A stretch of 64,000 nt of DNA from Amycolatopsis thermalba (GTDB taxonomy: Bacteria; Actinomycetota; Actinomycetes; Mycobacteriales; Pseudonocardiaceae). Within the stretch, counting starts at the first letter, position 1, and every line of letters begins with the position of its first letter. The notes below the pieces were generated by a model. The model ran no database searches, was not told where the DNA came from, and worked only from the letters and a program-made list of their open reading frames with translations. Location of the stretch: NCBI RefSeq assembly GCF_003385215.1, contig NZ_PQHW01000002.1, positions 62,001 through 126,000 on the forward strand. The letters run 5' to 3'. Both the position numbers and the translations under genes were made by a program. This document shows positions 42,521 through 60,297 of this stretch, in pieces.

Positions 42521-43636
42521 ATGCCCGAACCCGTTCCGCTCGGCCGTCCCACGGTCGGCGAGGAGGAGCTCGCCGCGGTGGCCGAGGTGTTCGCGTCGGG
42601 CTGGCTCGCCGGCGCCGGCCCCGCCTGCCGCCGGTTCGAGGAGCGCCTCGCCGCCGCCACCGGCACCGCCCACGCCCTGGCGACCAGCAGCTGCGGCGCC
42701 GCCCTGTTCCTCGGGCTGCGCGTGCTCGGCGTCCGGCCCGGCGACGAGGTGATCGTCGGCGACTACACCTTCCCGGCCACCGGCCACGCCGTCGTGCAGG
42801 CGGGCGCGACCCCGGTGTTCGCCGACGTCCGGCCCGACTCGTTCGCGGCCGACCCCGCCGCCGTCGAAGCCCTCGTCACGCACCGCACGGTCGGGATCAT
42901 CCCGGTGGACGTGGCCGGCCAGCCCGGCGAGTACGACGAGTACCGGGCGATCGCCGACCGGCACGGGCTGTGGCTGTTCGCCGACGCCGCCTGCGCGGCA
43001 GGCGCCACCCACCGCGGCCGCCCGGCGGGCAGCCTGGCCGACCTGACCGCGTTCTCCTTCCACGGCCGCAAGGGCATCACCGCCGGTGAGGGCGGCGCGC
43101 TGGTCTCCGACCGCGCGGACCTGATCGAGCACGCCCGCAAGCTGCACACCTACGGCATCGCGCCCGCACTCTCCCGCGAAGGGGCGCTCGCGGTGCCGGA
43201 GTTCGACGAGCTGGGCTGGAACTTCCGGCTCTCCGACGTCCAGGCCGCGATCCTGCGTGTGCAGCTGGACCGGTTGCCGCGACTGCTGGCGGCGCGGCGC
43301 GCGGTCGCCAAGCGGTACTCGGACGCCTTCGCCGGCCTGCCCGGCGTCTCCACGCCGGCGGAACTGCCCGGCCGCGAGCACCCGTGGCAGGCGTACCTGC
43401 TGCGGCTCGACCGCGGCCGCGACGAAGCCATTGCGAAGCTGCGCGCCCGCGGCATCCAGTGCACGTTCGGCACCTACGCCTCGCACCTGCAGCCGGTGTA
43501 CGGGCCGCAGGAGCCGTGCCCGGTGTCGGCGGAGTTGTTCCGCCGCCACCTGGCTCTCCCCATGCACGCCGATCTGACCGACGAGCAGGTCGCGCGGGTC
43601 ATCGAATCCGTCCGAGAAGTCGTAGGAGAGCTGTAG
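42521..43636 (+). CDS. DegT/DnrJ/EryC1 family aminotransferase (NDP-keto-sugar)
   Basis: A 371-residue fold-type I PLP enzyme that transaminates a keto group on a nucleotide sugar, usually from glutamate. The PLP lysine is Lys184 in FHGRKGITAGEGG, with the DAACAAGATHRGRP aspartate block before it. ATG 42521 has AAGGAG 5 nt upstream. The stop overlaps the epimerase GTG (TAGTG). First gene of a four-gene sugar operon. Confidence 0.9.
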   Translation: MPEPVPLGRPTVGEEELAAVAEVFASGWLAGAGPACRRFEERLAAATGTAHALATSSCGAALFLGLRVLGVRPGDEVIVGDYTFPATGHAVVQAGATPVFADVRPDSFAADPAAVEALVTHRTVGIIPVDVAGQPGEYDEYRAIADRHGLWLFADAACAAGATHRGRPAGSLADLTAFSFHGRKGITAGEGGALVSDRADLIEHARKLHTYGIAPALSREGALAVPEFDELGWNFRLSDVQAAILRVQLDRLPRLLAARRAVAKRYSDAFAGLPGVSTPAELPGREHPWQAYLLRLDRGRDEAIAKLRARGIQCTFGTYASHLQPVYGPQEPCPVSAELFRRHLALPMHADLTDEQVARVIESVREVVGEL

Positions 43637-44556
43637 TGCGAGTCCTGCTCACCGGGGGTGCCGGGTTCATCGCCGCGCACACCGTCCCGCTGCTGCGCGA
43701 GCGCGGCTACGAGGTGCGGATCTTCGACAACATGACCCGCGGCGACCGCGACCGCGTGTCCGGGTTCGTGGCGGGTGGCGGCGTCGAACTGGTCGAGGCC
43801 GACGTCCGCTACGGCGGCGCGGTGCGCGAGGCGATGCGCGGGTGCACGCACGTCATCCACTTCGCCACGGTGTCGATCAACAAGTCCATCGCCGACCCGC
43901 ACGAGTCGATCGACATCAACATGACCGGCAACCACAACGTGTTCGCCGCCGCCGCGGACGAGGGCGTGGACCGGGTCGTGTTCGCGTCGTCGGCCTCGGT
44001 GTACGGCGAGCCGGAGAAGCTGCCGATGCACGAGGACGACCGGCTCGACCCGCTCACGCCGTACTGCATCAGCAAGCGCGCGGGGGAGGACCTGCTGCGG
44101 TTCTACCAGCGGCAGAAGGGCTTGTCCTGGATCGCGTTGCGGTTCTTCAACGTCTACGGGCCGGGGCAGCGGATCGAGGCGTACTACACGTCGGTGATCA
44201 ACCACTTCATCCAGCGGCTGCGGGCGGGCAAGCCGCCGGTGATCGACGGCCGGGGCGCGCAGTCGATGGACTTCGTGCACGTCAGCGACCTCGCGCGGGC
44301 CGTGGTGCTGGCGCTGGAGTCGGTGACGGCGAACCTGCCGGTCAACATCGGCACCGGCATCGACACCTCGATCGCGGCGCTGGCGAAGATCCTCATCGAC
44401 GCCGTCGGGGTGGACGTCGAGCCCGAGTTCAACCCCCGCGACGTGCTGGTCTCGCGCCGGGCCGCGGACATCACCCGCGCCCGCGAGGTGCTCGGCTGGA
44501 CGCCGGAGATCTCCGTCGAGCAGGGCATGCGCGACCTCGTCGAGAGCTACCGGTGA
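43636..44556 (+). CDS. NAD-dependent epimerase/dehydratase (extended SDR, nucleotide-sugar)
   Basis: 306 residues. The NAD motif is TGGAGFI (6-12). The catalytic Ser/Thr lies in SSASVYGE and the catalytic pair is Tyr143-Lys147 in PYCISK. It resembles UDP-glucose 4-epimerases and related sugar-nucleotide enzymes. It probably supplies the keto-sugar or epimer handled by the preceding aminotransferase. Both ends overlap neighbours by 1-4 bp. Confidence 0.9.
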   Translation: MRVLLTGGAGFIAAHTVPLLRERGYEVRIFDNMTRGDRDRVSGFVAGGGVELVEADVRYGGAVREAMRGCTHVIHFATVSINKSIADPHESIDINMTGNHNVFAAAADEGVDRVVFASSASVYGEPEKLPMHEDDRLDPLTPYCISKRAGEDLLRFYQRQKGLSWIALRFFNVYGPGQRIEAYYTSVINHFIQRLRAGKPPVIDGRGAQSMDFVHVSDLARAVVLALESVTANLPVNIGTGIDTSIAALAKILIDAVGVDVEPEFNPRDVLVSRRAADITRAREVLGWTPEISVEQGMRDLVESYR

Positions 44557-45764
44557 GCGCGCCCGTCGCCGGGCCGGGCGCGCACCGGCCGCTGCGGATC
44601 GCCGTGGTCAACAACTTCTTCCCGCCCCGGGTCGGCGGCAGCGCGCACATGGCGGCGTCGCTGGCCCAGCGGTACGCGGCCGAGGGGCACGAGGTGCTGG
44701 CGATCACCGCGGCCTACGCCGACGCGCCGGAGACCGAGGAGCGTGACGGCTACCGCGTCGTGCGGCTGCCCGCGGTGCGGATGCCGCGGCTCGGGTGGTC
44801 GATCGACTTCGACCTCAGCTTCGTGACACCGCACCTGCGGACCCGGCGGCGGTTGCGGCGCCTGCTGGACGAGTTCCGTCCGGACGCGCTGCACCTGCAC
44901 GGCCAGTTCTTCGACCTCACCTGGCTGGCCGGGCGGTACGCGCGGCGGCGGGGGCTGCCGTCGCTGCTGACCATCCACACGCTCCTGGTCAGCGAACGGC
45001 GCCGGTACGACCGGCTGTTCCGGCTGCTGGACGCCGCACTCGTGCGGCCGAACCTGAACCGGATCGCGCCGCGGTTCGTCATCCTGGACAAGCTGGGCCT
45101 GGACTACTGCGCGCGGCGGTACGGCGTGACCGATCCGGAGTTCTTCCCGATCCCCGTGGACACCGAGCACCTGGATTCCGCGCCACGGAAGGACATCCGC
45201 GCCGAGCACGGCGTCGACGGGCCGCTGATCGTGTCGCTCGGGCACGTCATCCCGCTGCGGAACCGGCTGCCGCTGGTCGAGGCGATGCCGGCGATCCTGG
45301 CGCGGCACCCGGACGTCAGGGTGCTGGTGGTCGGCCGGGTCTACCACGACGCGTTCCTCAAGCGCGCCAGGGAACTCGGCGTCGCGGACGCGTTCGTGGT
45401 CACCGGCGCGGTGCCCAAAGACGACGTGCCGTCCTACCTGGCGGCGGCGGACCTCGTGGCGCACGACCTCAACGGCGGCTGCGGCACGGCGTCGCTGGAG
45501 GCGATGGCGGCCGGCACCGCGACGATCGCGTCCGTCGGCGAGGACAACTACCCGGGCGTCGAACTGCGCAACGGGTGGAACGTCCTGCTCGTCGAACCCG
45601 ACGACGCCGAGGCGGTCGCGGCGAACGTGATCGAGCTGCTGGACAAGCCGGGCAAGCGCCGGGCACTGGCCGCCCGGCAGCAGGCGCTGGTGCGCAACAA
45701 CTTCGCGCTCGACGTGGTCGCGGCCGAGCACCTGCGGGTGCTGGCGAAGATGGCGGGCCGGTGA
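44553..45764 (+). CDS. Glycosyltransferase family 4
   Basis: 403 residues, GT-B fold. The N-terminal acceptor-side loop is NNFFPPRVGGSAHMAASLA. The C-terminal donor-binding domain has VSLGHVIPLRNRLPLVEAM, VTGAVPKDDVPSYLAAADLV and the E-x7-E-type block GTASLEAMAAGTATIAS. It likely transfers the sugar made by this operon to a lipid-linked or surface acceptor on the cytoplasmic face. GTG 44553 overlaps the epimerase stop. Confidence 0.9.
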   Translation: MSAPVAGPGAHRPLRIAVVNNFFPPRVGGSAHMAASLAQRYAAEGHEVLAITAAYADAPETEERDGYRVVRLPAVRMPRLGWSIDFDLSFVTPHLRTRRRLRRLLDEFRPDALHLHGQFFDLTWLAGRYARRRGLPSLLTIHTLLVSERRRYDRLFRLLDAALVRPNLNRIAPRFVILDKLGLDYCARRYGVTDPEFFPIPVDTEHLDSAPRKDIRAEHGVDGPLIVSLGHVIPLRNRLPLVEAMPAILARHPDVRVLVVGRVYHDAFLKRARELGVADAFVVTGAVPKDDVPSYLAAADLVAHDLNGGCGTASLEAMAAGTATIASVGEDNYPGVELRNGWNVLLVEPDDAEAVAANVIELLDKPGKRRALAARQQALVRNNFALDVVAAEHLRVLAKMAGR

Positions 45765-46333
45765 TGTTCTTCGACGACGAGCGCAGCAACCGGTTGCGGC
45801 CGCGGATCCTGACCGAGGTCGTCGGGCAGTACCTGAACGACTCCGAACGCGCCCGCCTGTTCGGCCTGCCGGACACCACGCGCATCCGGGAGCGCGCGAA
45901 GATCATCGACCCGGAGCGGCTGGAGATCGGCGAACACTGCTGGATCGGCGAGGGCGCGGCGCTGGACGCCAGCGGTGGCCTGACGATCGGCGAGCACACC
46001 AGCATCGGGGTGGGCACGCTGGTGTTCACGCACTCCAGCTGGCTGGCGAACATGATGCTGGACAACCGGCCGGGCAGCGACCTGATCGAACGCAAACCGG
46101 TGCGGATCGGCAAGGGCTGCTTCATCGGCAGCATGGTGGTGGTCATGCCGGGCGTCACGATCGGCGATTTCGTCACGGTGCAACCGATGTCGCTGGTCGC
46201 CAAGGACGTCCCGGACCGCTGCCTGGTGGCCGGCAACCCGGCGCGGATCTTCCAGCGCTACGACGAGGAGTTCATCGAGGCGGAAGCCGCCCGGGTGCGG
46301 GCCGCGCGGGAGGGGTATCGCCCGGTCGAGTGA
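45764..46333 (+). CDS. Left-handed beta-helix (hexapeptide) acyltransferase, NodL/LacA-like
   Basis: 189 residues with hexapeptide repeats (LEIGEHCWIGEGAALDASGG; LTIGEHTSIGVGTLVFTHSS; VRIGKGCFIGSMVVVMPGV) and the terminal GNPARI block. The His in THSS probably acts as base. It is expected to O- or N-acetylate a sugar with acetyl-CoA. ATG 45764 overlaps the GT4 stop by one base (TGATG). Last gene of the operon. Confidence 0.85.
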   Translation: MFFDDERSNRLRPRILTEVVGQYLNDSERARLFGLPDTTRIRERAKIIDPERLEIGEHCWIGEGAALDASGGLTIGEHTSIGVGTLVFTHSSWLANMMLDNRPGSDLIERKPVRIGKGCFIGSMVVVMPGVTIGDFVTVQPMSLVAKDVPDRCLVAGNPARIFQRYDEEFIEAEAARVRAAREGYRPVE

Positions 46334-46788: not shown

Positions 46789-46792
46789 GGCG

Positions 46793-47535: not shown

Positions 47536-47586
47536 CTGGCAGATTAACGGAAGCGCGCCAGCCCTCGCCGCCGCGACCATGGGCCG

Positions 47587-48711
47587 GTGCGAACGATCCC
47601 CCTGCTCGCGGTCGGGCACGCGTGCGTCGACGTCTACCAGGGCGCGGTGGCCGCGCTCGTGCCGTTCTTCGTCGCCGAGCGCGCCTACACCTACGCCGCC
47701 GTCTCCGGCATCGTGCTGGCCGCGTCCCTGCTGTCCTCGGTCGTGCAACCGCTGTTCGGCGCGCTCGCCGACCGCTGGTCCATGCCGTGGCTGCTTCCGG
47801 TCAGCGCCCTCACCAGCGGGCTCGGCCTCGCGTTCGCCGGGGTCGGCGGTTCCTACGCGCTCACCGTGGCGGCCGTGGCCGTTTCCGGGATCGGGGTCGC
47901 CGCCTACCACCCGGAAGCCGCCCGCGTGGCCCGGATCGCGAGCCGGGGCAGCCACACCGCGATGGGCTGGTTCTCCCTCGGCGGCAACGTCGGCTTCGCG
48001 ACCGCGCCCCTGCTCGTCGCGGCCGTCGTGGCGACGAGTGGGCTGGCGTGGTCGCCGCTGCTGGCCCTGCCCGCGGCCGCGGGAGCCGTGTTGTGCGCGG
48101 CCGCCCTCCGCCGGATCTCCGGTACCACGGCGCAGGCGCGCGAGGGGACCGGCCGGAACGACTGGGCGTCCTTCGCGAAGCTGTCCGGCGCCATCGTGTG
48201 CCGCTCGATCGTCTTCATCGGACTGAGCACGTTCGTCTCGCTGTACGCGCAGCAACGCACCGGCGGCGGCAGCCTGGCGGGCACGGTCGCGTTGTTCGTG
48301 CTCTACGTCGGCGGCGCGATCGGCACGGTGGCCGGCGGGCGACTGGCCGCGTGCTTCGGCCGGATCCCCGTCGTGCGGTGGTCCTACGCGCTCACCACGT
48401 TGTCGGTGGCCGGGGTGGTGCTCGTGCCGGGGCCGCTGCTGTACCTGTTCGTCGCGGGCACGTCCGCCGGGCTGTACGTGCCGTTCTCGCTGCACGTCAC
48501 GCTGGGCCAGGACTACCTGCCGAGCCGGATGGGCACCGCGAGCGGCATCACGCTCGGCCTCACGGTCAGCGTCGGCGGGCTCGCCAGCCCGGTCCTGGGC
48601 AGCCTGGCGGACGCCACGTCGCTGCGGACCGCGCTCCTGCCGCTGATCGCGCTGCCGGTGCTCGGCCTGCTACTGCTGTCCACTGTGGAGGAGCCGGCTG
48701 TCCGGGGCTGA
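47587..48711 (+). CDS. MFS transporter, fosmidomycin-resistance-like
   Basis: 374 residues, about twelve helices. The opening GHACVDVYQGAVAALVPFFV, the AYHPEAARVA and FSLGGNVGFATAPL blocks match the Fsr-type group of efflux pumps. GTG 47587 lies 51 bp from the divergent AraC start, which suggests inducible drug efflux. The 3' end overlaps the convergent dehydrogenase gene by 42 bp. With the VOC and AraC genes it forms a resistance-like insert between two sugar operons. Confidence 0.85.
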   Translation: MRTIPLLAVGHACVDVYQGAVAALVPFFVAERAYTYAAVSGIVLAASLLSSVVQPLFGALADRWSMPWLLPVSALTSGLGLAFAGVGGSYALTVAAVAVSGIGVAAYHPEAARVARIASRGSHTAMGWFSLGGNVGFATAPLLVAAVVATSGLAWSPLLALPAAAGAVLCAAALRRISGTTAQAREGTGRNDWASFAKLSGAIVCRSIVFIGLSTFVSLYAQQRTGGGSLAGTVALFVLYVGGAIGTVAGGRLAACFGRIPVVRWSYALTTLSVAGVVLVPGPLLYLFVAGTSAGLYVPFSLHVTLGQDYLPSRMGTASGITLGLTVSVGGLASPVLGSLADATSLRTALLPLIALPVLGLLLLSTVEEPAVRG

Positions 48712-49656
48712 AGCTTGCTCCAGCACCGTCGCGACCACGCGGTGCGCGGGCCGGATCGAGGCGCGTTCGGCGTCCACGTCCACCCGGCCGTCGAGCAGGG
48801 CCAGGAAGTGGTCCAGCTGCGCGGCCAGCGGTTCCGCGGCCGAGACCAGCTCGGGGATCTCGATCACGGCCTGCTGCCGGTAGCCGAGCCCGTCCGGGGT
48901 GACCGCGTCGTGCGACACGTGCCGGTACAGGGTGACGTCCCGGCGCAGCAGGTCGAGTTCGATGAGCCGGTCGAGTTCGGAAATCACCAGCGACCGCACC
49001 TTCCGTTGCCCGACGCGGGACGCGGACACCGTCGCCAACCCGGCCGGGAAGGACAACACCGCTTCCACCGCGTCCTCCGCGCCGTCGGCGGACTCGGGGT
49101 GGAAGTACCCGGTGCCGGACGTGATCCGCTCCGGTTCCGCGCCGAAGAACTGGATGGCGATGTCGACGTCGTGCACGAGCAGGTCCCACGCCACCCCGGT
49201 GCGGACGCGCGGCGCGTACGGCCCGTGCCTGCGGGCCATCAGGTGCACCGGCCGGGTCGCCAGCGCCCGCGCGGTCAGCACGGCGGGGTTGAACCGCTCG
49301 ACGAACCCGCACATCAGCGGCACGCCCCTGGCGACCGACAGCGCGATGACCTCCTCGGTCGCGGCGAGGCTGTTCGCGACCGGCTTCTCCACCAGCAGCG
49401 GCTTGCCCTGGCCCAGGATCTCCAGCGCCAGCTCGTGGTGCGTCTCGGTGGCCGACGCCAGCACCACGGCGTCCACATCGGACAGCGAACCCAGCTCGGG
49501 GGTCCAGGCGGTGCCGTACCGCTCGGCGCCGGTCGGCCCGGCCGCGGCGCGCGGCTCGACCACCCGGACCAGGTCGACGCGGTCGTGGCGGGACAGCACA
49601 CGCGCGTGCAGCGACCCCATGTTGCCGGTGCCGACCAGCGCGACGCGGTATCTCAC
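48670..49656 (-). CDS. Gfo/Idh/MocA family oxidoreductase (GnnA/WbpB-like sugar-nucleotide dehydrogenase)
   Basis: 328 residues. The NAD Rossmann motif is VALVGTGNMGSLHARVL (5-21), EKPVANSLAAT is the family's EKP block near 93, and HDVDIAIQFFG the catalytic-domain helix. Together with an adjacent aminotransferase such enzymes oxidise the 3-position of UDP-GlcNAc or its uronic acid to set up a 3-amino sugar. GTG 49656 overlaps the aminotransferase stop, so the two are translationally coupled. The exact nucleotide sugar is not predictable. Confidence 0.85.
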   Translation of the reverse strand: MRYRVALVGTGNMGSLHARVLSRHDRVDLVRVVEPRAAAGPTGAERYGTAWTPELGSLSDVDAVVLASATETHHELALEILGQGKPLLVEKPVANSLAATEEVIALSVARGVPLMCGFVERFNPAVLTARALATRPVHLMARRHGPYAPRVRTGVAWDLLVHDVDIAIQFFGAEPERITSGTGYFHPESADGAEDAVEAVLSFPAGLATVSASRVGQRKVRSLVISELDRLIELDLLRRDVTLYRHVSHDAVTPDGLGYRQQAVIEIPELVSAAEPLAAQLDHFLALLDGRVDVDAERASIRPAHRVVATVLEQASAPDSRLLHSGQQ

Positions 49657-50759
49657 GCGCCGAGCGCCTCTCGCACCTCGCGCACGATGGTGTCCACGTC
49701 GGCCTCGGACAGCCCGGGGTGCACGGGCAGCGACAGGACTTCCTCGGTGACCTTCAGCGCCACCGGGAAGTCCTGCCGGGACACCGCCGGGATCTGCGGG
49801 TGCTCCCGGAAGCAGTCGTGGTCGAAGACCAGCTTCGGGTAGTACACGCCGGTCCCGATGCCGCGCGCGGCCAACTCGGCGACCAGCTCGTCGCGGGCGA
49901 GCATCGCGTGCGGGCCGATCAGCACGCTGTACTGGTGCCACACGTGCTCACGGCCGGGCAGCTCGGCGGGCACCGCCAGCCCGGGCGTCCCGGCGAGGCC
50001 GACGGACAGCTGCCGCGCGTTGCGCCGCCGGGCCGCGATCAGTTCGTCCAGTTTGTCCAGTTGCGGGATGCCGACGGCGGCGTGCAGCTCGGACATCCGG
50101 TAGTTGTGCCCGGGCACCTCGTAGGAGTAGCGCGTCCGCATGCCCTGGTTGCGCAGCACGCGCAGGCGGTCGGCCAGCTCGGCGTCGTCGGTGGTGATGA
50201 CGCCGCCCTCGCCGGTGGTCACGTTCTTGGTGGCGTACAACGAGAAACAGCCCACGCCGAACGATCCGGCCGGCCGTCCGGCGAAGGTCGCCCCGACCGC
50301 CTGCGCGGCGTCCTCCACCAGGTACAGCTCGTGCTCCTCGGCGAGCGGGGCGAGCTTGCCCAGGTCGGCGGTCTGGCCGTAGAGGTGCACCGGGAGGATC
50401 GCCCGGGTGTCCGGGGTGATCTCGGCCGCGACCGCGTCCGGGTCGACGGCGAAGTCCTCGCGGGTGATGTCGGCGAACCGGACCGTCGCGCCCGTCGCCA
50501 GGATCGCGTTGAGCGTCGCGACGAAGGTGAACGGCGAGGTGATCACCTCGTCGCCGGGGCCCAGCCCGAGCGCCCGCAGCGTGGCGGTGAGCGCGGCGGA
50601 TCCGCTGTTCACGGCGACCGCGTGCGCGGTGCCGGCGGCGCGGGCTAAGGCGTCCTCGAAGCGGGCGACCATCGGGCCCTGCGCGAGCGTCCCCGACCGC
50701 AGCACCTCCACCACGAGGGATTCGGCGTCGCGGACGTCGACCGCGGTGATGGGGATCAT
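49653..50759 (-). CDS. DegT/DnrJ/EryC1 aminotransferase (GnnB/WbpE-like)
   Basis: A 368-residue PLP enzyme. The PLP lysine is Lys178 in LYATKNVTTGEGG, with VEDAAQAVGATFAGR before it and GHNYRMSELHAAVG after. It is paired by overlap with a Gfo/Idh dehydrogenase, the arrangement of GnnA-GnnB (UDP-GlcNAc to its 3-amino analogue) and WbpB-WbpE. It is divergent, 64 bp apart, from an LpxA-like acyltransferase that could use its product. It resembles the aminotransferase at 42521 only at family level. Confidence 0.9.
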   Translation of the reverse strand: MIPITAVDVRDAESLVVEVLRSGTLAQGPMVARFEDALARAAGTAHAVAVNSGSAALTATLRALGLGPGDEVITSPFTFVATLNAILATGATVRFADITREDFAVDPDAVAAEITPDTRAILPVHLYGQTADLGKLAPLAEEHELYLVEDAAQAVGATFAGRPAGSFGVGCFSLYATKNVTTGEGGVITTDDAELADRLRVLRNQGMRTRYSYEVPGHNYRMSELHAAVGIPQLDKLDELIAARRRNARQLSVGLAGTPGLAVPAELPGREHVWHQYSVLIGPHAMLARDELVAELAARGIGTGVYYPKLVFDHDCFREHPQIPAVSRQDFPVALKVTEEVLSLPVHPGLSEADVDTIVREVREALGA

Positions 50760-50823
50760 GGGCGCGGCGTTCCTTTACTGTGATCGGCTCAGGCGTCCGT
50801 AAGACTGTACGAATGGATCTCGC

Positions 50824-51528
50824 GTGGTAAACCGCATCCACCCGACTGCGGTACTCGGGCCCGGAGTCGAACTCGGCGACGGCAACGTCGTCGGACCCTA
50901 CGCCGTGCTCGCCGGGCCGCTGGTGATCGGGGACGGCAACTGGATCGGTCCACACGTCACGATCGGCACTCCGGCCGAGGACCGCACCGGTCCGCATCCC
51001 GTGTCGTGGGAGGACGAACCGGTCGGCGCGGGGGTGCGGATCGGCAGCGGCAACCGGATCCGCGAGTACGTGAGCGTCCACCAGGGCACCCGGCGCAGCA
51101 CACGTCTGGGTGACAACGGGTACTACCTGCGCGGCAGTCACGTCGCGCACGACTGCGAGATCGGCGACCACGTCACGCTCGCGTCGAACGTCGTGCTCGG
51201 CGGGCACACGGCGATCTGGTCGCGCGCCAACCTCGGCATGGGCGCGATCGTGCACCAGCACGTGCGGATCGGCCCGGGCGCCATGGTGGGCATGGGATCC
51301 GCGGTGCGCCGCGAGGTCGGCGCGTTCACCGTCGCCGTCGGCAACCCGGCGCGCGTGACCGGCCTGAACGTGGTCGGCCTGACCCGGCTCGGCCTCGACG
51401 AGCGGCAGATCGCCGCGCTGGAGCCGTGGCTCAAGGGGGCCGGGCCGATTCCACCCGATGGGCTGCTGGACCGGCTCCCCGGCGGCGTCTCTACTTTGGT
51501 GCAGGCGTGGAACGACCGGAAGGACTAG
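50824..51528 (+). CDS. LpxA-like acyl-ACP-dependent acyltransferase
   Basis: 234 residues. Landmarks match LpxA along the whole chain: IHPTAVLGPGVELGDGN, GSGNRIREYVSVHQGT, HVAHDCEIGDHVTLASN (catalytic His109), VLGGH (His128), IVHQHVRIGPGAMVGMGSAV and the C-terminal GLNVVGLTRLGLDERQIAAL. LpxA transfers a 3-hydroxyacyl chain from ACP to the 3-position of UDP-GlcNAc or its 3-amino analogue. Lipid A is not expected in an actinobacterium, so the product must be another acylated sugar. An acyl carrier protein is encoded next. GTG 50824 is preceded by a five-codon reading frame at 50813. Confidence 0.85.
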   Translation: MVNRIHPTAVLGPGVELGDGNVVGPYAVLAGPLVIGDGNWIGPHVTIGTPAEDRTGPHPVSWEDEPVGAGVRIGSGNRIREYVSVHQGTRRSTRLGDNGYYLRGSHVAHDCEIGDHVTLASNVVLGGHTAIWSRANLGMGAIVHQHVRIGPGAMVGMGSAVRREVGAFTVAVGNPARVTGLNVVGLTRLGLDERQIAALEPWLKGAGPIPPDGLLDRLPGGVSTLVQAWNDRKD

Positions 51529-51530
51529 AC

Positions 51531-51767
51531 GTGGACATCGAGACCCGGCTGCGCAAGGTTTTCACCGAAGCGCTCGACCTCGGCGGCGACGTCGACGTGG
51601 ACGCCCTGACCTACCGCGGGATCGAGGCCTGGGACTCGGTCGGCCACATGAGCCTGGTCGCCGCCATCGAGGACGAGTTCGACATCGAGCTGGAGACCGA
51701 CCAGGTGATCGACTTGAGCAGCTTCCAGGTCGCGCGGAAGCTGGTGGCGGAGCTGGCGGGTGCCTGA
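51531..51767 (+). CDS. Acyl carrier protein
   Basis: 78 residues, acidic. The phosphopantetheine site is Ser36 in EAWDSVGHMSLV, with helix III DLSSFQVARKLV. It is a dedicated ACP rather than the fatty-acid AcpP, judging from the DSVGHM motif shared with ACPs of specialised clusters. GTG 51531 has AAGGA 6 nt upstream. It probably carries the acyl chain for the LpxA-like enzyme and the LuxE/LuxC genes downstream. The stop overlaps the SDR start by 8 bp. Confidence 0.9.
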   Translation: MDIETRLRKVFTEALDLGGDVDVDALTYRGIEAWDSVGHMSLVAAIEDEFDIELETDQVIDLSSFQVARKLVAELAGA

Positions 51768-52467
51768 CCTGCGCGGGCGGGTCGCGCTGGTCACCGGCGG
51801 CACCCGCGGCATCGGACTGGCGACCGTGCGCGCGCTCGCCGCGGCCGGCGCGGCGGTGGTGCTCACCGGACGCGACGAGGCACGCGCGAAGGAGGTCGCG
51901 GCGTCGGTCCCCGGGCAGGTCACCGGGGTCGCCCTCGACGTCACCGACGCGAAGGCCGTGTCGTCCGTCGTCCGCGCCGCCGCCAAGGAGCGCGGCCGGC
52001 TCGACGTGCTGCCCGGCGACGCCGGGATCTACGCCGAGGGCGTGCTGGGCATGGTCGGCGACGTCGAGGCGGTCCTGTCGACGAACGTGGCGGGCACGAT
52101 CCACACGGTGCAGGCGGCGGCGCGGGCGATGACCCGCGCCCGCTCGGGCGCCATCGTGGTGCTGGCCTCGGTCGTCGGCGAGCGCGGCGCCGCCGGTCAG
52201 ACGGTCTACGCGGCGTCGAAGGCGGCGGTCGCGAACATCGCGAAGAGCGCGGCGAAGGAGCTGGGCCGGTTCGGCATCCGGGTCAACGCCGTGGCGCCGG
52301 GCGTGATCGACACCGAGATGACCGCCGGGCTCGCCGATCCGGACACCGCGCTGGGGCGCCGCGGCCGCGCCGAGGAGGTCGCGAACGCGATCGCGTTCCT
52401 CGCCGGCGACGAGGCGTCCTACGTGACCGGTCAGGTGCTCGGCGTCGACGGAGGGATGGTGCTGTGA
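51760..52467 (+). CDS. FabG-like short-chain dehydrogenase/reductase
   Basis: 235 residues. The NADP motif is TGGTRGIG (12-19), and the catalytic triad is Ser137, Tyr150 and Lys154 (YAASK). The typical NNAG block reads PGDAG at 85-89, an unusual change. The C-terminal segment is YVTGQVLGVDGGM, as in FabG. Next to an ACP it may reduce a 3-keto-acyl-ACP to the 3-hydroxyacyl form. GTG 51760 overlaps the ACP gene. Confidence 0.87.
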   Translation: MPDLRGRVALVTGGTRGIGLATVRALAAAGAAVVLTGRDEARAKEVAASVPGQVTGVALDVTDAKAVSSVVRAAAKERGRLDVLPGDAGIYAEGVLGMVGDVEAVLSTNVAGTIHTVQAAARAMTRARSGAIVVLASVVGERGAAGQTVYAASKAAVANIAKSAAKELGRFGIRVNAVAPGVIDTEMTAGLADPDTALGRRGRAEEVANAIAFLAGDEASYVTGQVLGVDGGMVL

Positions 52468-53861
52468 CCCTGCTGGCTCCCGGCGCGCGGCTCGTCGACG
52501 CGGAAACCGGCGCGGAACTGGGCGGCGCGGCGCTGACCGGCGAGGTCGAGCGGCGGGCCGAGGAACTCGCGGCGCTGCCGGACGGCGTGTTGTTCGCCCG
52601 CACCGGCGTCGACCTGGACAGCGTGCTCACCTACGTCGCGGCGGTGCGGGCCGGGCGGGCGGTGGCGCTGATCGACCCGGAGGTGTTCGTCCCGGTGCTG
52701 GCCGGCCTGATCGAGCGGTTCTGCCCGGCGGCCGTGCTCGGCGCGCCCGCGGCGGAACCGCCGTCCGGGTACCGGACCGCGGACGGGCACTGGCTGCGCC
52801 TCGACCCCGGTGGTATCCGCCCGCACCCCGACCTCGCCGTGCTGCTGCCGACCAGCGGTTCGACCGGCAACCCGAAGCTGGTCCGGTTGTCCCGCACCGC
52901 GATCCTGACCAACGCGCACGCGATCGCCGACGTGCTCGGCATCGACGAGCGCGAGGTCGCCCCCACCACGTTGCCGCTGCACTACAGCTACGGCCTGTCC
53001 GTGCTCAACTCGCACCTGGTCCGCGGCGCGACCGTCGTCGTCGAGCGGGAGGGCATCCTCGGCCGCGGGTTCTGGGACGCCGTGGCCGCGCACGAGTGCA
53101 CGTCGGTCGCCGGGGTGCCCTACCACTACGAGATGCTGCGGCGGCTGAAGTTCGACCCGTCCGCCAATCCCGGCGTGCACACGCTGACCCAGGCCGGCGG
53201 GCGGATGCGGCCCGAGCTGATCGCCGAGTTCGACACGCTCATGCGCTCGGCCGGCGGGCGGATGTTCGTGATGTACGGCCAGACCGAGGCCGCGCCGCGG
53301 ATGGCGATCATGCCGTCCGAGCGGCTCGCCGAGAAGATCGGCTCGGTCGGGCCCGCGCTGCCCGGCGGGCAGTTCGCCATCCGCCGCCCGGACGGCGGCG
53401 ACACCACGCACCCCAAGATCAGCGGCGAGATCGTCTACCGCGGGCCGAACGTGATGATGGGCTACGCCTCGACCGCCGAGCAGCTCGCGCTGGGCGACGA
53501 GTGCGGCGGTGTGCTGCCCACCGGTGACCTCGGTTACCTCGACGAGGAGGGGTTCCTGTTCGTCACCGGACGGCTCAAGCGGATCGGCAAGGTGTTCGGC
53601 AACCGGATCAGCCTCGACGACCTGGAGGCGGCCACCCGCGCGACCGGGCTGGGCATCGACATCGTGGCCGCGGTGCCCGCCGACGACAAGGTCGTGTTGT
53701 TCGCCGAGGGCGTTCCGGCGGAGACGTGCAAGGCCGCGTCCCGCGCGCTGTCCGACCGGCTGCACCTGCACGCGTCCGGGTTCGACGTCCGCTCGATCGA
53801 CACGATCCCGCTGCTGGCCAGCGGGAAGATCGACTACCAGGCGCTGGCGGAGCGGGTATGA
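52464..53861 (+). CDS. AMP-dependent acyl ligase
   Basis: 465 residues. The P-loop is LLPTSGSTGNPKLV (about 129-142), A5 is MYGQTEAAPRM, A7/A8 is TGDLGYLDEEGFLFVTGRLK, and the catalytic lysine is in LLASGKIDYQAL. The N-terminal domain is shorter than in acyl-CoA synthetases, as in ligases that load carrier proteins. It probably activates a carboxylic acid and loads the ACP two genes upstream. Coupled by overlap to the SDR and LuxE genes. Confidence 0.87.
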   Translation: MTLLAPGARLVDAETGAELGGAALTGEVERRAEELAALPDGVLFARTGVDLDSVLTYVAAVRAGRAVALIDPEVFVPVLAGLIERFCPAAVLGAPAAEPPSGYRTADGHWLRLDPGGIRPHPDLAVLLPTSGSTGNPKLVRLSRTAILTNAHAIADVLGIDEREVAPTTLPLHYSYGLSVLNSHLVRGATVVVEREGILGRGFWDAVAAHECTSVAGVPYHYEMLRRLKFDPSANPGVHTLTQAGGRMRPELIAEFDTLMRSAGGRMFVMYGQTEAAPRMAIMPSERLAEKIGSVGPALPGGQFAIRRPDGGDTTHPKISGEIVYRGPNVMMGYASTAEQLALGDECGGVLPTGDLGYLDEEGFLFVTGRLKRIGKVFGNRISLDDLEAATRATGLGIDIVAAVPADDKVVLFAEGVPAETCKAASRALSDRLHLHASGFDVRSIDTIPLLASGKIDYQALAERV

Positions 53862-54865
53862 GCCTGCTCGCCGAGCTGACCGCGCTCACCGCGCACCACC
53901 GGGCGCGCTGCCCGGAGTACGACCGGATCCTGTCCGCGCTCGGTGCCGGGTCGTCGTTCGACAGCGTGGCCGACCTGCCGTGGCTGCCGGTCCGGTTGTT
54001 CAAGACGCACGCGCTCAAGAGCATCCCGGACGAGGCGGTGTTCAAGGTGCTCACGTCGTCGGGGACCACCGGCGAGCCGTCGCGGATCTTCCTGGACCGC
54101 GAAGCCGCGGCCGCGCAGACGAAGCACCTGGCGGAGACGCTGCGGACGGTCCTGGGCCCGCAGCGGCTGCCGATGCTGGTGGTCGACACGATCGGCGTGA
54201 TCAAGGACCGCCGCACGTTCTCCGCGCGCGGCGCCGGGGTGCTGGGCATGGCGAACTTCGGGCGCAAGCACGTCTACGTCCTCGACGAGCACGACGTGCC
54301 GGACGTCGAGGCGGTGCGCGGGTTCCTGGCGCGCCACGGCGGCGAGCCGTTCCTGGTCTTCGGGTTCACCTTCATGGTGTGGCGGTACCTGTACCGGATG
54401 GCGCGCGAGCACGGGTTCGACCTGTCCAACGGGATCCTGCTGCACTCCGGCGGCTGGAAGAAGCTCGCCGACCAGGCGGTGGACAACGCGACGTTCCGCC
54501 GCGCCTTCGCCGAGGACACCGGGCTGCGGCGGATCCACAACTACTACGGGATGGTCGAGCAGATCGGCACGGTGTTCGTCGAGGGCGCGGCCGGGGACGG
54601 CCTGTACTGCCCGGAGTTCGCCGACGTGATCATCCGCGATCCGGTGACCTTCGCCGAGCAGCCGGTGGGGGTGCCGGGCGTGATCGAGGTGGTGAGCACG
54701 CTGCCGCGGTCCTACCCGGGGCACGTGCTGCTGACCGAGGACCTCGGCGTGTGCCACGGGATCGACGACGGCGAGCGGCCGGGCAAGCGGTTCTCGGTGC
54801 TCGGCCGGCTGCCGAAGGCGGAGGCGCGGGGCTGCTCGGACACGTTCCAGGCGCGGGCCGCATGA
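53858..54865 (+). CDS. luxE: LuxE-like acyl-protein synthetase
   Basis: 335 residues. The adenylate motif is LTSSGTTGEPSRIF (about 63-76), with IHNYYGMVEQIGTVF and the C-terminal GCSDTF. LuxE activates a fatty acid as acyl-AMP and holds it on a C-terminal cysteine before passing it to LuxC; Cys326 here is suitably placed. It is not a bioluminescence operon, because luxA and luxB are absent. LuxE/LuxC pairs also occur in polysaccharide clusters. ATG 53858 overlaps the ligase stop, ATG 54862 (luxC) the LuxE stop. Confidence 0.87.
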   Translation: MSLLAELTALTAHHRARCPEYDRILSALGAGSSFDSVADLPWLPVRLFKTHALKSIPDEAVFKVLTSSGTTGEPSRIFLDREAAAAQTKHLAETLRTVLGPQRLPMLVVDTIGVIKDRRTFSARGAGVLGMANFGRKHVYVLDEHDVPDVEAVRGFLARHGGEPFLVFGFTFMVWRYLYRMAREHGFDLSNGILLHSGGWKKLADQAVDNATFRRAFAEDTGLRRIHNYYGMVEQIGTVFVEGAAGDGLYCPEFADVIIRDPVTFAEQPVGVPGVIEVVSTLPRSYPGHVLLTEDLGVCHGIDDGERPGKRFSVLGRLPKAEARGCSDTFQARAA

Positions 54866-56016
54866 GGCAGCTCTTCCCGGCCGCGGGGCCGGTCGAGGTG
54901 GACCGCCTGCTGGACGAGGTGCGCTCGGCGCCCGCGCTGGAGGTGGGGGACGAGCGGGTCGTGGACTTCCTGGTCCGGTTCGCCCGCGCGCTGCTCGCCC
55001 CGGCGGTGGCTCGCGCGTACCCGGAGCTGGCCTCACTGGGGTTCTTCCTGCGGCGGGGCGAGATCCGGCGCGCGCTGGCCCGGCTGGACGGGGACGAGCT
55101 GCGGTTGCCGCGTGGCCTGGTGTTCCACGTGCCACCGGCCAATGTGGACACCATCTTCGTGTACTCGTGGGCGCTGTCCGCGCTGGCGGGCAACCGGAAC
55201 GTCGTGCGCCTGTCGCCCCGGTCCGCGGGCGCCTCGGCCGCGGTGCTGGACGCGTTGTCCGATGTGGACCCCGTGGTGGCCGCGTCGCAGCGGATCGTCA
55301 CCTACGACCGCGACGACGCGGTGACGGCGGCGTTGTCGGCGGCGGCGGACCTGCGGGTGCTCTGGGGCGGCGACGCGACGGTGCGCGCGTTGCGGAGGTT
55401 CGAGCTGGCGCCGCACGCGCGGGACCTGACGTTCCCGGATCGCTCGTCGTTCGCGGTGATCTCGGCGGCCGGCTGGGCGCGCGCGTCGGCGGACGAGCGC
55501 CGGGCGGCGGTCGAGGGGTTCCGCAACGACGTGTTCTGGTTCGACCAGGCCGCGTGCGCGTCCCCGCGCGGCGTGTACTGGGTCGGCGGCCCGCCCGCGG
55601 CGGAGTTCCGGTCGTTGCTGGCCTCGATCGCGCCGGCGCCGGAGCCCGCGATGGCGGTGCAGAACCGGGTCGGCGCCTACGGTGTGGCGGCCGACGGCGT
55701 GGCGACCCGGATCGCCTTCGACGGTCCGGCCCTGACCACCCTCGAAACACCCGACGTGGTCCGCGATTGGCTCGGCGCGGGGGTTGTCACCCAATCGAGG
55801 GTGTCCAGTTTGGACGAACTGGTACCGAAAGTCGTCCGGCGCGACCAGACCATCACTCATTTCGGTTTTTCCCGCGCGGAGCTGACCGATTTCGCGCGGA
55901 AACTGCCCGGCGTGGACCGGTTGGTGCCCTTCGGTTCGGCGTTGCAGTTCGCGCCGGTGTGGGACGGCTACGACCTACTCGCGGAATTCACCAGGATCGT
56001 CACTGTTACCGTCTGA
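54862..56016 (+). CDS. luxC: LuxC-like acyl-CoA/acyl-protein reductase
   Basis: 384 residues of the aldehyde-dehydrogenase-like LuxC family, which reduces a LuxE-bound acyl group to aldehyde with NADPH. Landmarks are FHVPPANVDTIFVYSWALSA near 88, NRNVVRLSPR, and the active-site Cys232 in QAACASPRGVYWVGG. Its place after ACP, ligase and LuxE genes implies a fatty or small acyl aldehyde intermediate, possibly for attaching or modifying a sugar. It ends 4 bp before the flippase-like gene. Confidence 0.88.
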   Translation: MRQLFPAAGPVEVDRLLDEVRSAPALEVGDERVVDFLVRFARALLAPAVARAYPELASLGFFLRRGEIRRALARLDGDELRLPRGLVFHVPPANVDTIFVYSWALSALAGNRNVVRLSPRSAGASAAVLDALSDVDPVVAASQRIVTYDRDDAVTAALSAAADLRVLWGGDATVRALRRFELAPHARDLTFPDRSSFAVISAAGWARASADERRAAVEGFRNDVFWFDQAACASPRGVYWVGGPPAAEFRSLLASIAPAPEPAMAVQNRVGAYGVAADGVATRIAFDGPALTTLETPDVVRDWLGAGVVTQSRVSSLDELVPKVVRRDQTITHFGFSRAELTDFARKLPGVDRLVPFGSALQFAPVWDGYDLLAEFTRIVTVTV

Positions 56017-56020
56017 CCTC

Positions 56021-56914
56021 GTGAAACGACTCCTGGACGTCGCCCGCTGGGTGGCGCTCGCGGTCGTCGCGGCGTTCGTGGTGCGGGTGCTGGCCGGCGA
56101 CTGGACGGAGTTCTGGCGGGCCCTGCGGTCGATCGCCTGGCCGTGGGCCGTGCTCAGCCTGGCCGCGCTGGTCGCGAGCATCACGGTGTCGACCTACGGC
56201 TGGCAGACGGTGGTCGACGGCCTCGGCGACCGGGTCGGCTACCGGCGCGGCGCGCGAATCTGCCTGGTCGGGCAGCTGGGGAAGTACGTGCCCGGTTCGG
56301 TGTGGGCGTACCTGCTGCAGATGGAGCTGGGCCGCAAGGCGGGCGTGTCCCGGGCGCGGATCTTCACCGGTTCCCTGGTGCAGTTCGGCATCGGCCTGGT
56401 CGCGGCGCTGCTGTTGTCCGCGCTGGCGCTGCCGGTCGCCGGGCCCGCGGTGTGGTTGCTGGTGCTGCTGCCTGCCGGGCTGGTGGCGTTGCACCCGCGG
56501 GTCCTGGCGTGGGGCACCGGCCTGGCGCTGCGCCTGCTGCGCCGCGATCCGCTGCCCCGCCCGCTGGGGTTCGCGTCGATCGCGCGGGCGTTCGCGGCCT
56601 CGGTGCTGGCCTGGACGCTGCAGGGGCTGCACCTGTGGCTGCTGGCGCCCTCGCTGAACCTCTGGACGTGCGTCGGCGCGATGGCGATCGCGATGACCGC
56701 GGGCACGTTCGCGTTCCTGCTGCCCAGCGGCGCCGGTGTGCGCGAGGCCGTGCTGGTGGCGCTGCTCGGCACGGCCGGTTTCTCGGCCGGTCAGGCGCTG
56801 GCGTTCGCCCTGGTGTCCCGGGTGATGTTCACGGTGGCCGACCTGCTGACCGCACTGGCCGCCACCCTCCCCACCCGCGAGTCCCACGCTCAGCCGCGCG
56901 AGTCCCACGCTTGA
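56021..56914 (+). CDS. Flippase-like membrane protein (LPG_synthase_TM / UPF0104 family)
   Basis: 297 residues with seven to eight helices. The family landmarks are VGQLGKYVPGSVWAYLLQ (about 85-102) and LLPSGAGVREAVLVALL (about 227-243). Members include the membrane domain of MprF and putative glycolipid flippases. As last gene of the LpxA-LuxC operon it may move the acylated sugar product across the membrane. Its final 13 residues (RESHAQPRESHA region) are encoded by the 21-bp repeat array and are not part of the family. Confidence 0.82.
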   Translation: MKRLLDVARWVALAVVAAFVVRVLAGDWTEFWRALRSIAWPWAVLSLAALVASITVSTYGWQTVVDGLGDRVGYRRGARICLVGQLGKYVPGSVWAYLLQMELGRKAGVSRARIFTGSLVQFGIGLVAALLLSALALPVAGPAVWLLVLLPAGLVALHPRVLAWGTGLALRLLRRDPLPRPLGFASIARAFAASVLAWTLQGLHLWLLAPSLNLWTCVGAMAIAMTAGTFAFLLPSGAGVREAVLVALLGTAGFSAGQALAFALVSRVMFTVADLLTALAATLPTRESHAQPRESHA

Positions 56915-56995
56915 GACCGCGAGTTCCACGCTTGAGACCGCGAGTTCCACGCTTGAGACCGCGAGTTCCACGTTCCAGGCCCTGAGTTCCGCGTT
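56877..56995. repeat. Tandem repeat array, 21-bp period, six copies (core GCGAGTTCCACGCT)
   Basis: Core copies start at 56877, 56898, 56919, 56940, 56961 and 56982, each 21 bp apart; the last two are diverged. The first two have TCCC, the later ones TTCC. Spacers differ (mostly TGAGACC). It overlaps the 3' end of the flippase gene and fills the space to the convergent DUF6541 gene. Same core, period and position type as 13851-13934. Confidence 0.9.
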
Positions 56996-58863: not shown

Positions 58864-58941
58864 AAGTCTCGGAGACGAAACAATTCGTGCGCGAGAACGA
58901 TACTTACGGCAAGGGTGGAGCGGCGTCACGGAGGGTGAGAA

Positions 58942-60297
58942 GTGCCTGGTGCCCTGGTCGCCGCGTGGCTGGCGCTGGCGGGGGTGGTCACCGCGGTGTG
59001 GCCGCGGGTGGCGACCCAGCGCGCCCGGCGGGGCTGGATCCTGCTGCTCGCGCTGGTGTTCGCCCTGGTCCTGCAGCTCGTCGTGGCCACCGTGCCGGAC
59101 GACGCGTTCGTCACCTTCCGCTACGCCCGCAACATGGCCGAGGGCTACGGCGCGGTCTACACGATCGGCGAGCGGACCCAGGGCGTGCCGAACTTCCTGT
59201 GGCTGGTGCTGGTCACGTTGCCGCGGGCGATGTTCGGCGCGGACATCGTCGGCGGCGCGGTCGGGCTCGGCATCGCGTGCGCGCTGGGCTGCGTGGTGCT
59301 GGCGTACCTGCTGGCGAAGCGGTTCGCCGGTGGGGCCGGGGTGGTCGCCGCGCTGCTGACCGCGGGCGCGAGCATCCTGGCCGCCCGCGGTCTGGCCGGC
59401 ACCGAGACGGCGTTGTTCGTCCTGCTCGTGCTGGCCGTGTGCCTGGCACTGGTCACCGGCCACCCGCTGGTCGCCGGGGTGCTCGCCGCGCTGGCCGTGA
59501 TGACCCGCTCCGACGGTGCGGTGCTCGCGTTGCTCGGCGAGGCCTGGCTGGTGACCGCCGCGGTGCGGCGCCGGTCGAGCTGGTGGGGCCCGGCCGGGTA
59601 CCTGCTGGGCGCGCTGGTGTTCCTCGTGCCGTGGTGGGCGTGGGAGGCCACCTACTACGGGCACGCCAGGGCGGGGTGGCCCGCGTCGGCCCACCTGCCG
59701 TACGGGTTCCTGCTGTGCGCGCTGGCCGCGGTCGGGGCGGCGGTGGTGTCCGCCAGGCTGGGCGTGCGTCACGACCGCCCGTCGCCCCGGCCGCGCCGCA
59801 GCCTCGCTGAGCGGCGCGTCGTGCCGGTGGTCGCGCTCGCGCTGTGCGCGGTCAGCGTGCCGGTGGCGGTCGCGGCGCAGCAGGTGGTGCACCTCGACCG
59901 CGAGCGGCTCGCGCAGACCACGGAGATCGGCCGCTGGCTGGGTGACCGCCTGCCGGCCGGCTCGACCATCGACACGTTCGGCAGCGCCGCGCTGGCCTAC
60001 CGCGCCGGCTCCCGGATGATGATCACCGGCATCACCGGCATCACCGCATCCGAGCCGGCGGACGCCTACGCCCCGGTCGCGATCTTCGGCCTGCCGGTGC
60101 TCGCCGCGCCGCTGGCCTGGTATTCACCGGAGCAGGACTGCGGGATAGCGGAGAAGTACGCGCAGCGCTACGAGGTGGCCACCTTCCAGCGCACCGGCCT
60201 GGGCTGGCTGACGTTGTACCTCCGCACCGACAGCGAGTCGCGCCTGCTGACCCAGCTGATGTCCGACCAGCGGCTGACCTACGTGCCCTGTCCCTAG
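58942..60297 (+). CDS. GT-C-type membrane glycosyltransferase, AftB/ZomB-like
   Basis: 451 residues, about nine to ten membrane helices. The first outside loop reads VPDDAFVTFRYARNMAEGYG then TIGERTQGVPNFLWLVL. The DD motif plus G-x-G-x-x-Y/F and E-x-T/V-Q-G pattern is that of AftB-like arabinofuranosyltransferases and ZomB-like proteins, which use polyprenyl-phosphate sugar donors. GTG 58942 has GGAGG 7 nt upstream. The stop shares CTAG with the convergent HAD gene. A cell-wall arabinan role is plausible given glf nearby. Confidence 0.75.
   Translation: MPGALVAAWLALAGVVTAVWPRVATQRARRGWILLLALVFALVLQLVVATVPDDAFVTFRYARNMAEGYGAVYTIGERTQGVPNFLWLVLVTLPRAMFGADIVGGAVGLGIACALGCVVLAYLLAKRFAGGAGVVAALLTAGASILAARGLAGTETALFVLLVLAVCLALVTGHPLVAGVLAALAVMTRSDGAVLALLGEAWLVTAAVRRRSSWWGPAGYLLGALVFLVPWWAWEATYYGHARAGWPASAHLPYGFLLCALAAVGAAVVSARLGVRHDRPSPRPRRSLAERRVVPVVALALCAVSVPVAVAAQQVVHLDRERLAQTTEIGRWLGDRLPAGSTIDTFGSAALAYRAGSRMMITGITGITASEPADAYAPVAIFGLPVLAAPLAWYSPEQDCGIAEKYAQRYEVATFQRTGLGWLTLYLRTDSESRLLTQLMSDQRLTYVPCP

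Follow-up and report, generated by a model that had tools for sequence, protein, structure and literature searches.

The DNA considered here, called the window throughout, is a stretch of 64,000 nucleotides from the actinobacterium Amycolatopsis thermalba (contig NZ_PQHW01000002.1, positions 62,001 to 126,000) with a G+C content of 72%. Between positions 50824 and 56914, its plus strand carries a series of seven genes that begins with that for an LpxA-like left-handed beta-helix acyltransferase of 234 amino acids (50824..51528; NCBIfam LpxA, 8.3e-53), a probable N-acyltransferase of a 3-amino sugar. Next come an acyl carrier protein (ACP) of 78 amino acids with Ser36 in a DSVGHM site (51531..51767; best NCBIfam ACP match 5.7e-6, no Pfam match at 1e-3), a FabG-like short-chain dehydrogenase/reductase (SDR; 51760..52467; adh_short_C2, 8.3e-52), an adenosine monophosphate (AMP)-forming acyl ligase of 465 amino acids (52464..53861; AMP-binding, 7.4e-39), a LuxE-family acyl-protein synthetase (53858..54865; PF04443, 3.4e-45), a LuxC-family acyl-CoA (acyl-protein) reductase (54862..56016; PF05893, 6.6e-28) and, as the final gene, a flippase-like LPG_synthase_TM membrane protein (56021..56914; PF03706, 2.5e-22). 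Neighbouring genes overlap by 4-8 bases or sit 2-4 bases apart, the pattern expected for one translationally coupled operon. Oriented divergently from it and starting at 50759, two genes on the minus strand encode a DegT/DnrJ/EryC1/StrS aminotransferase with a putative GnnB/WbpE-like role (49653..50759; PF01041, 9e-117) and a Gfo/Idh/MocA dehydrogenase with a putative GnnA-like role (about 48670..49656; PF01408, 7.1e-20).

A preliminary description of this DNA had drawn the system between 48670 and 51767, and the Gfo/Idh, DegT, LpxA-like and ACP genes that it named are all borne out at their places by open reading frames and by profile matches that, for the LpxA, DegT and Gfo/Idh families, lie far beyond chance. 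The interval was nevertheless too short, as the operon continues to 56914 with the SDR, ligase, LuxE, LuxC and LPG_synthase_TM genes; the LuxE/LuxC pair, absent from that description, is the most telling part of the operon. An Rfam scan of positions 47000-58000 gave no match, and a scan of 50600-57100 returned no promoter-like site and one terminator-like site versus 1.6 expected.

The LpxA-like protein had been described as matching LpxA from end to end, with AHDC and NRIREYVSVHQGT motifs. Both motifs are present, but the end-to-end match did not hold: the protein scores 179.2 and 167.2 bits with the two NCBIfam LpxA equivalogs, whose cut-offs are 226 and 231.05 bits, and the C-terminal domain PF13720, although above its cut-off (27.4 versus 24.5 bits), is matched only at positions 4-37, that is at 34 of 82 positions. 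Relative to Escherichia coli LpxA (L065), the protein is short of one coil (about 18 residues) and of the greater part of the C-terminal domain, and one loop is longer. It retains the counterparts of E. coli H122, H125, H144, H160, N198 and R204, among which are catalytic residues of the E. coli enzyme; H109, aligned with the catalytic H125, is invariant in every group compared. A sequence search of the PDB placed Burkholderia LpxA (4eqy, 3.4e-34) and Pcryo_0615 of Psychrobacter cryohalolentis (8e62, 3.8e-34) side by side, and identity amounts to 38% over 180 residues with 8e62 and to 35% over 203 residues with E. coli LpxA. The PDB title of 8e62 names an N-acetyltransferase required for a diacetamido-2,3- sugar. 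Predicted models of the LpxA-like protein (predicted local distance difference test, pLDDT, 68.6; predicted template modelling score, pTM, 0.62; no Foldseek match at E <=0.001) and, poorer still, of the Gfo/Idh protein (pLDDT 43.7) were not used as evidence.

Synthesis of lipid A, which had been judged unlikely from the lineage, is indeed very unlikely in this host, since its 7.24-Mb genome, 98.5% complete, contains no LpxB match (0/1), no LpxC match (0/1) and no LpxD match over the cut-off (six fall below it); in 4 of 14 control genomes, LpxB, LpxC and LpxD each exceeded their own cut-offs. PF13720 has a single match in the host genome, which is over its cut-off. Collectively, the protein resembles LpxA in its repeat fold and catalytic residue and is no member of LpxA by four measures, namely the equivalog scores, the incomplete PF13720 domain, its grouping in the protein tree and the search of the genome for lpxB, lpxC and lpxD.

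Counting every LpxA-like match at E 1e-20 as a homologue and including the host's own genome, we found homologues in 18 of 61 genomes in a search of relatives, in 106 of 297 genomes of the family and in 7 of 393 genomes of the class; a LuxE like that of the window is encoded by 76 of the 297 family genomes, seven of which have no LpxA-like match. The 109 LpxA-like places in these 297 genomes comprise 77 with at least 239 bits, 21 weaker and 11 weakest ones. Of the 77 closest homologues, 63 have LuxE no more than 6 kb away, and the remaining 14 are in genomes without LuxE. For the 21 weaker places, LuxE is within 6 kb in 1, further off in 5 and missing from the genome in 15, and for the 11 weakest it is near in none, elsewhere in the genome in 3 and missing in 8. 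At the 239-bit cut, the co-occurrence of LpxA-like protein and LuxE across the 297 genomes (table 63/14/13/207) has a Fisher p of 2e-37, uncorrected for relatedness. One LpxA-like match of the collection (G117:C24:7286-7972; L174) contains an in-frame TGA and may be broken or end early. A 17.9-kb plasmid of Enterobacter asburiae (NZ_CP129955.1:10992-11525) encodes an LpxA-like protein with 33% identity over 78% of the query.

We read 111 loci, namely all of the 109 family places except G301 and three further loci (L031, L032 and L034) that belong to different families within the order, and refer to the ACP, SDR, AMP ligase, LuxE and LuxC genes as the cassette and to a locus with at least four of these five genes as a cassette locus. 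By this definition 70 loci carry the cassette (67 of them all five genes), 24 have only DegT and/or Gfo/Idh, and 17 have neither. In 65 of the 70 the ACP gene is the next gene 3' of the LpxA-like gene and on the same strand, with midpoints 461-647 bases apart, and these 65 are every cassette locus of the clade of 79 proteins to which the window protein belongs. Since it is found directly downstream of the acyltransferase gene in 65/65 such loci, the ACP looks dedicated to the LpxA-like enzyme, as had been proposed. At the thresholds applied, both DegT and Gfo/Idh matches are present in 50 of the 70 cassette loci; in 13 of the other 20, the stretch read contains neither. All but one of these 13 come from a single subclade, and in L030, a relative of that subclade, the two genes are 8-9 kb distant and would fall outside most of the fetched stretches; the thirteenth, L115, has a weak DegT match only. 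An LPG_synthase_TM gene was seen in 56 of the 70 cassette loci versus 12 of the 41 others. The operon is real and conserved, its genes are intact, and it is no artefact.

A tree of 120 rows (the 111 loci, eight LpxA proteins and 8e62), rooted only at its midpoint, places the window protein in a clade of 79 rows (support 100/97) that contains 65 cassette loci. Its sister clade of 21 rows (97/84) holds 15 loci with DegT or Gfo/Idh and no cassette, 5 with the cassette and 1 with neither. The two are joined by 8e62, at an open fork and on a long branch, and this whole side is split at 100/100 from the eight LpxA rows and a third group of 11 rows that sides with LpxA (support 99/95 for the 11 rows by themselves and 100/100 for their union with LpxA). 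The window protein consequently lies outside LpxA, on the side of an N-acetyltransferase; the placement with acetyl-CoA sugar acetyltransferases that the preliminary description had named as grounds against its reading is half borne out. The 11-row group (L164:8611-9348, L038, L165-L173) is a second LpxA-like clade of the family and closer to genuine LpxA: PF13720 is matched by the L164 protein at positions 1-81 of 82, cassette matches are absent from all 11 loci, and in 5 of them a shared neighbour resembles a TetR regulator by eye. Mapped onto the tree, the cassette label changes 6 times compared with 33.4 times in shuffles (0 of 500 as low), and the two cassette-bearing loci from another family of the order, L031 and L032, stand at the base of the cassette clade. 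As the tree has a midpoint root only, we infer rather than read off the direction of change, in which DegT, Gfo/Idh and the LpxA-like protein would form the older set and the cassette would have been acquired in one or a few events, with repeated losses thereafter. A quicker rate of the LpxA-like protein after loss of the cassette, found in two of three loss lineages and not in the third, whose place in the tree is unresolved, was set aside.

At the position of E. coli H122, all 65 cassette rows of the clade, 8/8 LpxA and 11/11 rows on the LpxA side carry His, and all 21 rows of the sister clade and 8e62 carry Tyr. The position of E. coli Gln73 is Glu in 65/65 cassette rows of the clade. For G173, the acyl ruler of E. 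coli LpxA, 56 of these 65 rows have Met and 9 have Leu, a substitution that agrees with an acyl group shorter than that of the E. coli enzyme.

The catalytic residues of the cassette proteins are well kept. The ACP serine is intact in 70/70 cassette loci and in 9/9 other loci, the C-terminal cysteine of LuxE and the active cysteine of LuxC are present in 70/70 each, the ligase has its C-terminal lysine in 70/70 and its P-loop lysine in 65/70 loci, and the SDR has its Tyr/Lys pair in all 67 copies found. The sugar genes are less sharply assigned. Gfo/Idh has as its best NCBIfam match an archaeal UDP-GlcNAc 3-dehydrogenase, at 127.8 bits far below the cut-off of 450, and as its best PDB match 7bvj, which we take to be GnnA; DegT is nearest to 4-amino-sugar enzymes, all below cut-off, and its PDB matches include perosamine synthetase 3bn1 (the best) and WbpE 3nyu. 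The pair fits the synthesis of a 3-amino sugar, as had been put forward.

In other phyla, the cassette adjoins N-acyltransferases of different types. It stands beside a NeuD-type transferase in Deinococcus sp. NW-56, in the gene order of the window, beside a NeuD-like protein just under the cut-off in Rhizobium anhuiense, in another order, and beside a weak GNAT match just under the cut-off in Ponticoccus alexandrii, where luxC lies apart on the opposite strand; PseH takes this place in Aeromonas, according to the available part of PMC7874193. The open reading frames scanned around the cassette in Nonomuraea gerenzanensis (L095) and in L091 included none recognised as an acyltransferase. A Rhizobium protein (L094; 3991-4644) was rejected as a second LpxA case; being closest to the NeuD/VioB family (153.4 bits, cut-off 160.8), it counts only as an N-acyltransferase-type neighbour, and its annotation as acyl-ACP--UDP-N-acetylglucosamine O-acyltransferase looks wrong.

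These data lend themselves to a model of a glycan-precursor operon in which a uridine diphosphate (UDP)-linked 3-amino sugar is N-acylated from a dedicated short hydroxyacyl-ACP. Judging from the protein families, the Gfo/Idh dehydrogenase would oxidise C3 of a UDP-HexNAc, and DegT would aminate it to UDP-GlcNAc3N or a close relative. The ligase would load a short acid onto the operon's ACP, LuxE and LuxC would convert a carboxyl to an aldehyde, and the SDR would convert the aldehyde to an alcohol, in an order and on a substrate that we can only surmise. Subsequently, the LpxA-fold enzyme would move the short hydroxyacyl group from the ACP to the 3-amino group by means of the histidine aligned with E. 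coli His125, and the sugar may then become part of a surface glycan on a lipid carrier, or of a glycoprotein, assembled by the products of the neighbouring glycosyltransferase and flippase-like genes. We consider the model as a whole, with its donor and acyl group deduced from gene content, to be somewhat probable, and its central step, in which the LpxA-like enzyme N-acylates a 3-amino sugar, to be highly probable.

Further genes lie on both sides of the operon. An upstream block on the plus strand encodes a second DegT aminotransferase (42521..43636; PF01041, 1.9e-102), an NAD-dependent epimerase/dehydratase (43633..44556; PF01370, 6.1e-55), a GT4-type glycosyltransferase (44556..45764; Glycos_transf_1, 2.2e-21) and a hexapeptide acyl/acetyltransferase (45764..46333; Hexapep, 4.9e-12). 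The block (42521-46333) adjoins the Gfo/Idh gene in the relatives L023, L024 and L026 and hence is part of the same locus; in the window, glyoxalase-like and MFS genes (46354-48711) split the two. Within the stretch read, 44 of the 70 cassette loci have a GT4 glycosyltransferase. On the other flank, a DUF6541 membrane protein is encoded on the minus strand next to the operon (56995..58887; PF20176, 6.5e-102; such a gene is found in 27/70 cassette loci versus 15/41 others), followed on the plus strand by a PMT-like membrane protein (58942..60297; PF13231, 3.2e-5, below cut-off with 24.6 versus 26.1 bits), possibly a lipid-linked glycosyltransferase. The closest match of the window's LuxE is a Nonomuraea protein (70%), and that of the seryl-tRNA synthetase is a set of Streptomyces plasmid copies (59%).

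Several observations weigh against a supply of the LpxA-like enzyme by the cassette, and several of them also speak for a WbpB/WbpE/WbpD-like route, already named in the preliminary description, in which the enzyme acetylates the 3-amino sugar from acetyl-CoA and the cassette serves another enzyme, such as the hexapeptide transferase at 45764-46333. This alternative now has a real representative in 8e62, which is titled N-acetyltransferase for a diacetamido-2,3- sugar; it is the nearest characterised relative, scores like LpxA against the window protein, shares its side of the tree and has Met at the ruler position too. The counterpart of E. coli D74 is Asp in just 43 of the 65 cassette rows. 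The His/Tyr contrast at the H122 position sets the clade apart from 8e62, though not strictly by cassette: the 14 cassette-less rows of the clade have His in 10 and Trp in 4 cases, and five cassette-less loci from the class have His in three (L181, L183 and L185), Tyr in one and Ser in one. As it separates clades and does not track the cassette, the contrast is weak evidence on the donor. The hexapeptide gene, in turn, could be the partner of the cassette, since it is present in 41/70 cassette loci and in only 4/41 others within the stretches read. Moreover, the LpxA-like gene and the cassette are each found without the other, so that we reject the idea of an obligate pair. In 14 of the clade's 79 rows the LpxA-like gene has no cassette with it. 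The same applies, in the stretch read, to six of the eight loci outside the family, all eight of which have a DegT match (L034 and L181-L185; DegT match 6/6, Gfo/Idh 5/6); the other two, L031 and L032, have the full cassette next to the LpxA-like gene and more distant DegT and Gfo/Idh matches. The acyl-ACP and acetylation alternatives may on the evidence of these eight loci be two states of one family. In five cassette loci (L075-L079) the LpxA-like protein is of the sister clade, with the ACP gene about 8-17 kb and LuxC 4-13 kb distant, and three of the 70 cassette loci lack the SDR. Conversely, four genomes (G237, G274, G309 and G027; L072-L074 and L080) have the cassette, DegT and Gfo/Idh without an adjoining LpxA-like gene, and in all four a PylC-like ATP-grasp gene (L072:12768-14410, L073:5622-6689, L074:13497-14564, L080:13025-14721; 77-100% identical to that of L072) occupies its slot between DegT and ACP. 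The cassette accordingly does not need LpxA; the ATP-grasp ligase, found in none of the 70 cassette loci and accompanied by a HAD hydrolase gene in both loci read for this (L072 and L080), could form the same amide from the free acid. Acetylation is nevertheless opposed by the ACP gene that follows the LpxA-like gene in each of the clade's cassette loci and by the composition of the operon, none of whose seven genes encodes another acyltransferase; we judge it possible but on balance unlikely. The donor role of the cassette's acyl-ACP, in contrast, we hold with no more than moderate confidence, on account of the ATP-grasp loci, the 14 cassette-less rows, the hexapeptide transferase and two loci, L088 and L090, with LuxE, LuxC, ligase and weak SDR matches but no ACP, LpxA or sugar-gene match.

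Two further explanations would change either the acyl group or the link itself. In a true LpxA-type reaction, a medium or long 3-hydroxyacyl-ACP would give a lipid-like acylated amino sugar, that is a glycolipid. Similarity to the LpxA profile, the conserved catalytic residues and the ACP and FabG-like SDR in the operon would agree with this, but the missing LpxB and LpxC, the sub-threshold LpxD matches, the scores below the LpxA cut-offs, the place outside LpxA in the tree, the shortened C-terminal domain, the Met or Leu at the acyl-ruler position and an operon with no ketosynthase or dehydratase among its seven genes make it improbable. Finally, the aldehyde or alcohol made by the cassette might never be put on this sugar and might, for example, belong to another metabolite, with the two gene sets being mere neighbours. 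The ATP-grasp protein in place of LpxA in four loci would allow for this, as would L088 and L090, which do not look like sugar loci by eye. Their genes lie at L088:8744-12413 and L090:8314-11941, and one L090 neighbour appears P450-like by eye, perhaps as part of a natural-product cluster. Given the tight co-occurrence, the gene order and the company that the cassette keeps in other phyla, namely genes of N-acyltransferase type or for glycans, this explanation is very improbable, even more so than the glycolipid.

LuxE and LuxC together act in bioluminescence as a carboxylic acid reductase. If they and the SDR converted one carboxyl of malate to an alcohol, 2,4-dihydroxybutyrate would result, with an acyl increment of 102.032. 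We put forward, tentatively and as a doubtful proposal, that the cassette is a transferable module which produces a C4 dihydroxyacyl-ACP (acyl group C4H6O3, 102.03 Da; 2,4-dihydroxybutyryl or an isomer) and that an LpxA-fold N-acetyltransferase has been re-tooled in the host family to use it on a 3-amino sugar. The flagellin glycan of Aeromonas piscicola AH-3 is described, in the part of the source at hand, as a 376.14-Da pseudaminic acid derivative and a 102-Da moiety of unknown nature (PMC7874193). A C4 dihydroxyacyl group in place of one acetyl of Pse5Ac7Ac gives a calculated 376.148 for comparison with the 376.14 of this source, and the C4 group would thereby account for both AH-3 masses; this inference is our own, and the match is suggestive only, since O-methylglyceroyl has the identical formula. 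If the model is true, an LpxA-fold acyl-ACP transferase would be at work outside lipid A, in a genome with no visible lipid A pathway, and an actinobacterial operon would reuse a kind of enzyme that is chiefly familiar from the lipid A of Gram-negative bacteria. The cassette, which is present in the glycan loci of several phyla and is described only as fatty-acid-like ('liposugar') in the passages available of two papers (PMC7874193; PMC4875605), would also gain a function that can be tested. If the donor has indeed switched from acetyl to a carrier-bound hydroxyacyl group, the switch is open to study within one protein tree.

Among known systems, the combination of LpxA with GnnA and GnnB shares with the window a dehydrogenase, an aminotransferase and an LpxA-fold enzyme with the catalytic histidine; by this route UDP-GlcNAc3N feeds LpxA in some lipid A pathways, as stated in the accessible portion of PMC5644692. 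The window system differs in its lack of lpxB and lpxC matches and of lpxD over cut-off, in scores below the LpxA cut-offs, in one coil fewer and in its own ACP cassette. The same five families as in the cassette, in the same order as in the window, make up part of the group II islands of Aeromonas (98 strains), where ACP, 3-oxoacyl-ACP reductase, AMP-dependent synthetase, luxE and luxC are listed and, in strain AH-3, sit downstream of the sugar N-acetyltransferase gene pseH (PMC7874193, in part); enterobacterial flagellin glycosylation islands carry these families as well, and 'liposugar' was proposed likewise in the section seen of PMC4875605. The sugar of these islands is, as far as these excerpts go, pseudaminic acid or unknown, whereas the window locus has an LpxA-fold enzyme and a putative 3-amino sugar. 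The five families of such glycan islands are found in the window in the published order and with their catalytic residues. Among the Vibrio cholerae O1 tetronate genes VC0248-VC0252, we presume LuxC-like, ligase and ACP roles. These five genes are assigned in the available text of PMC3441752 to an acyl group on the amino groups of perosamine, a likeness by description only and with a different sugar. Among the matches listed in the open-licence literature, no publication ties an LpxA-like protein to the cassette or to the host family. Pcryo_0615 is like the window protein in its 38% identity, in having fewer coils than LpxA in the aligned part, in its side of the tree and in the Glu for E. coli Gln73, and it differs in the Tyr where the cassette clade has His and in its title of acetyltransferase; the portion seen of PMC8040287 concerns Pcryo 0612, 0638 and 0637. 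The description that suits the system best is that of an N-acyltransferase of the Pcryo_0615 kind coupled to an acyl-ACP cassette of its own.

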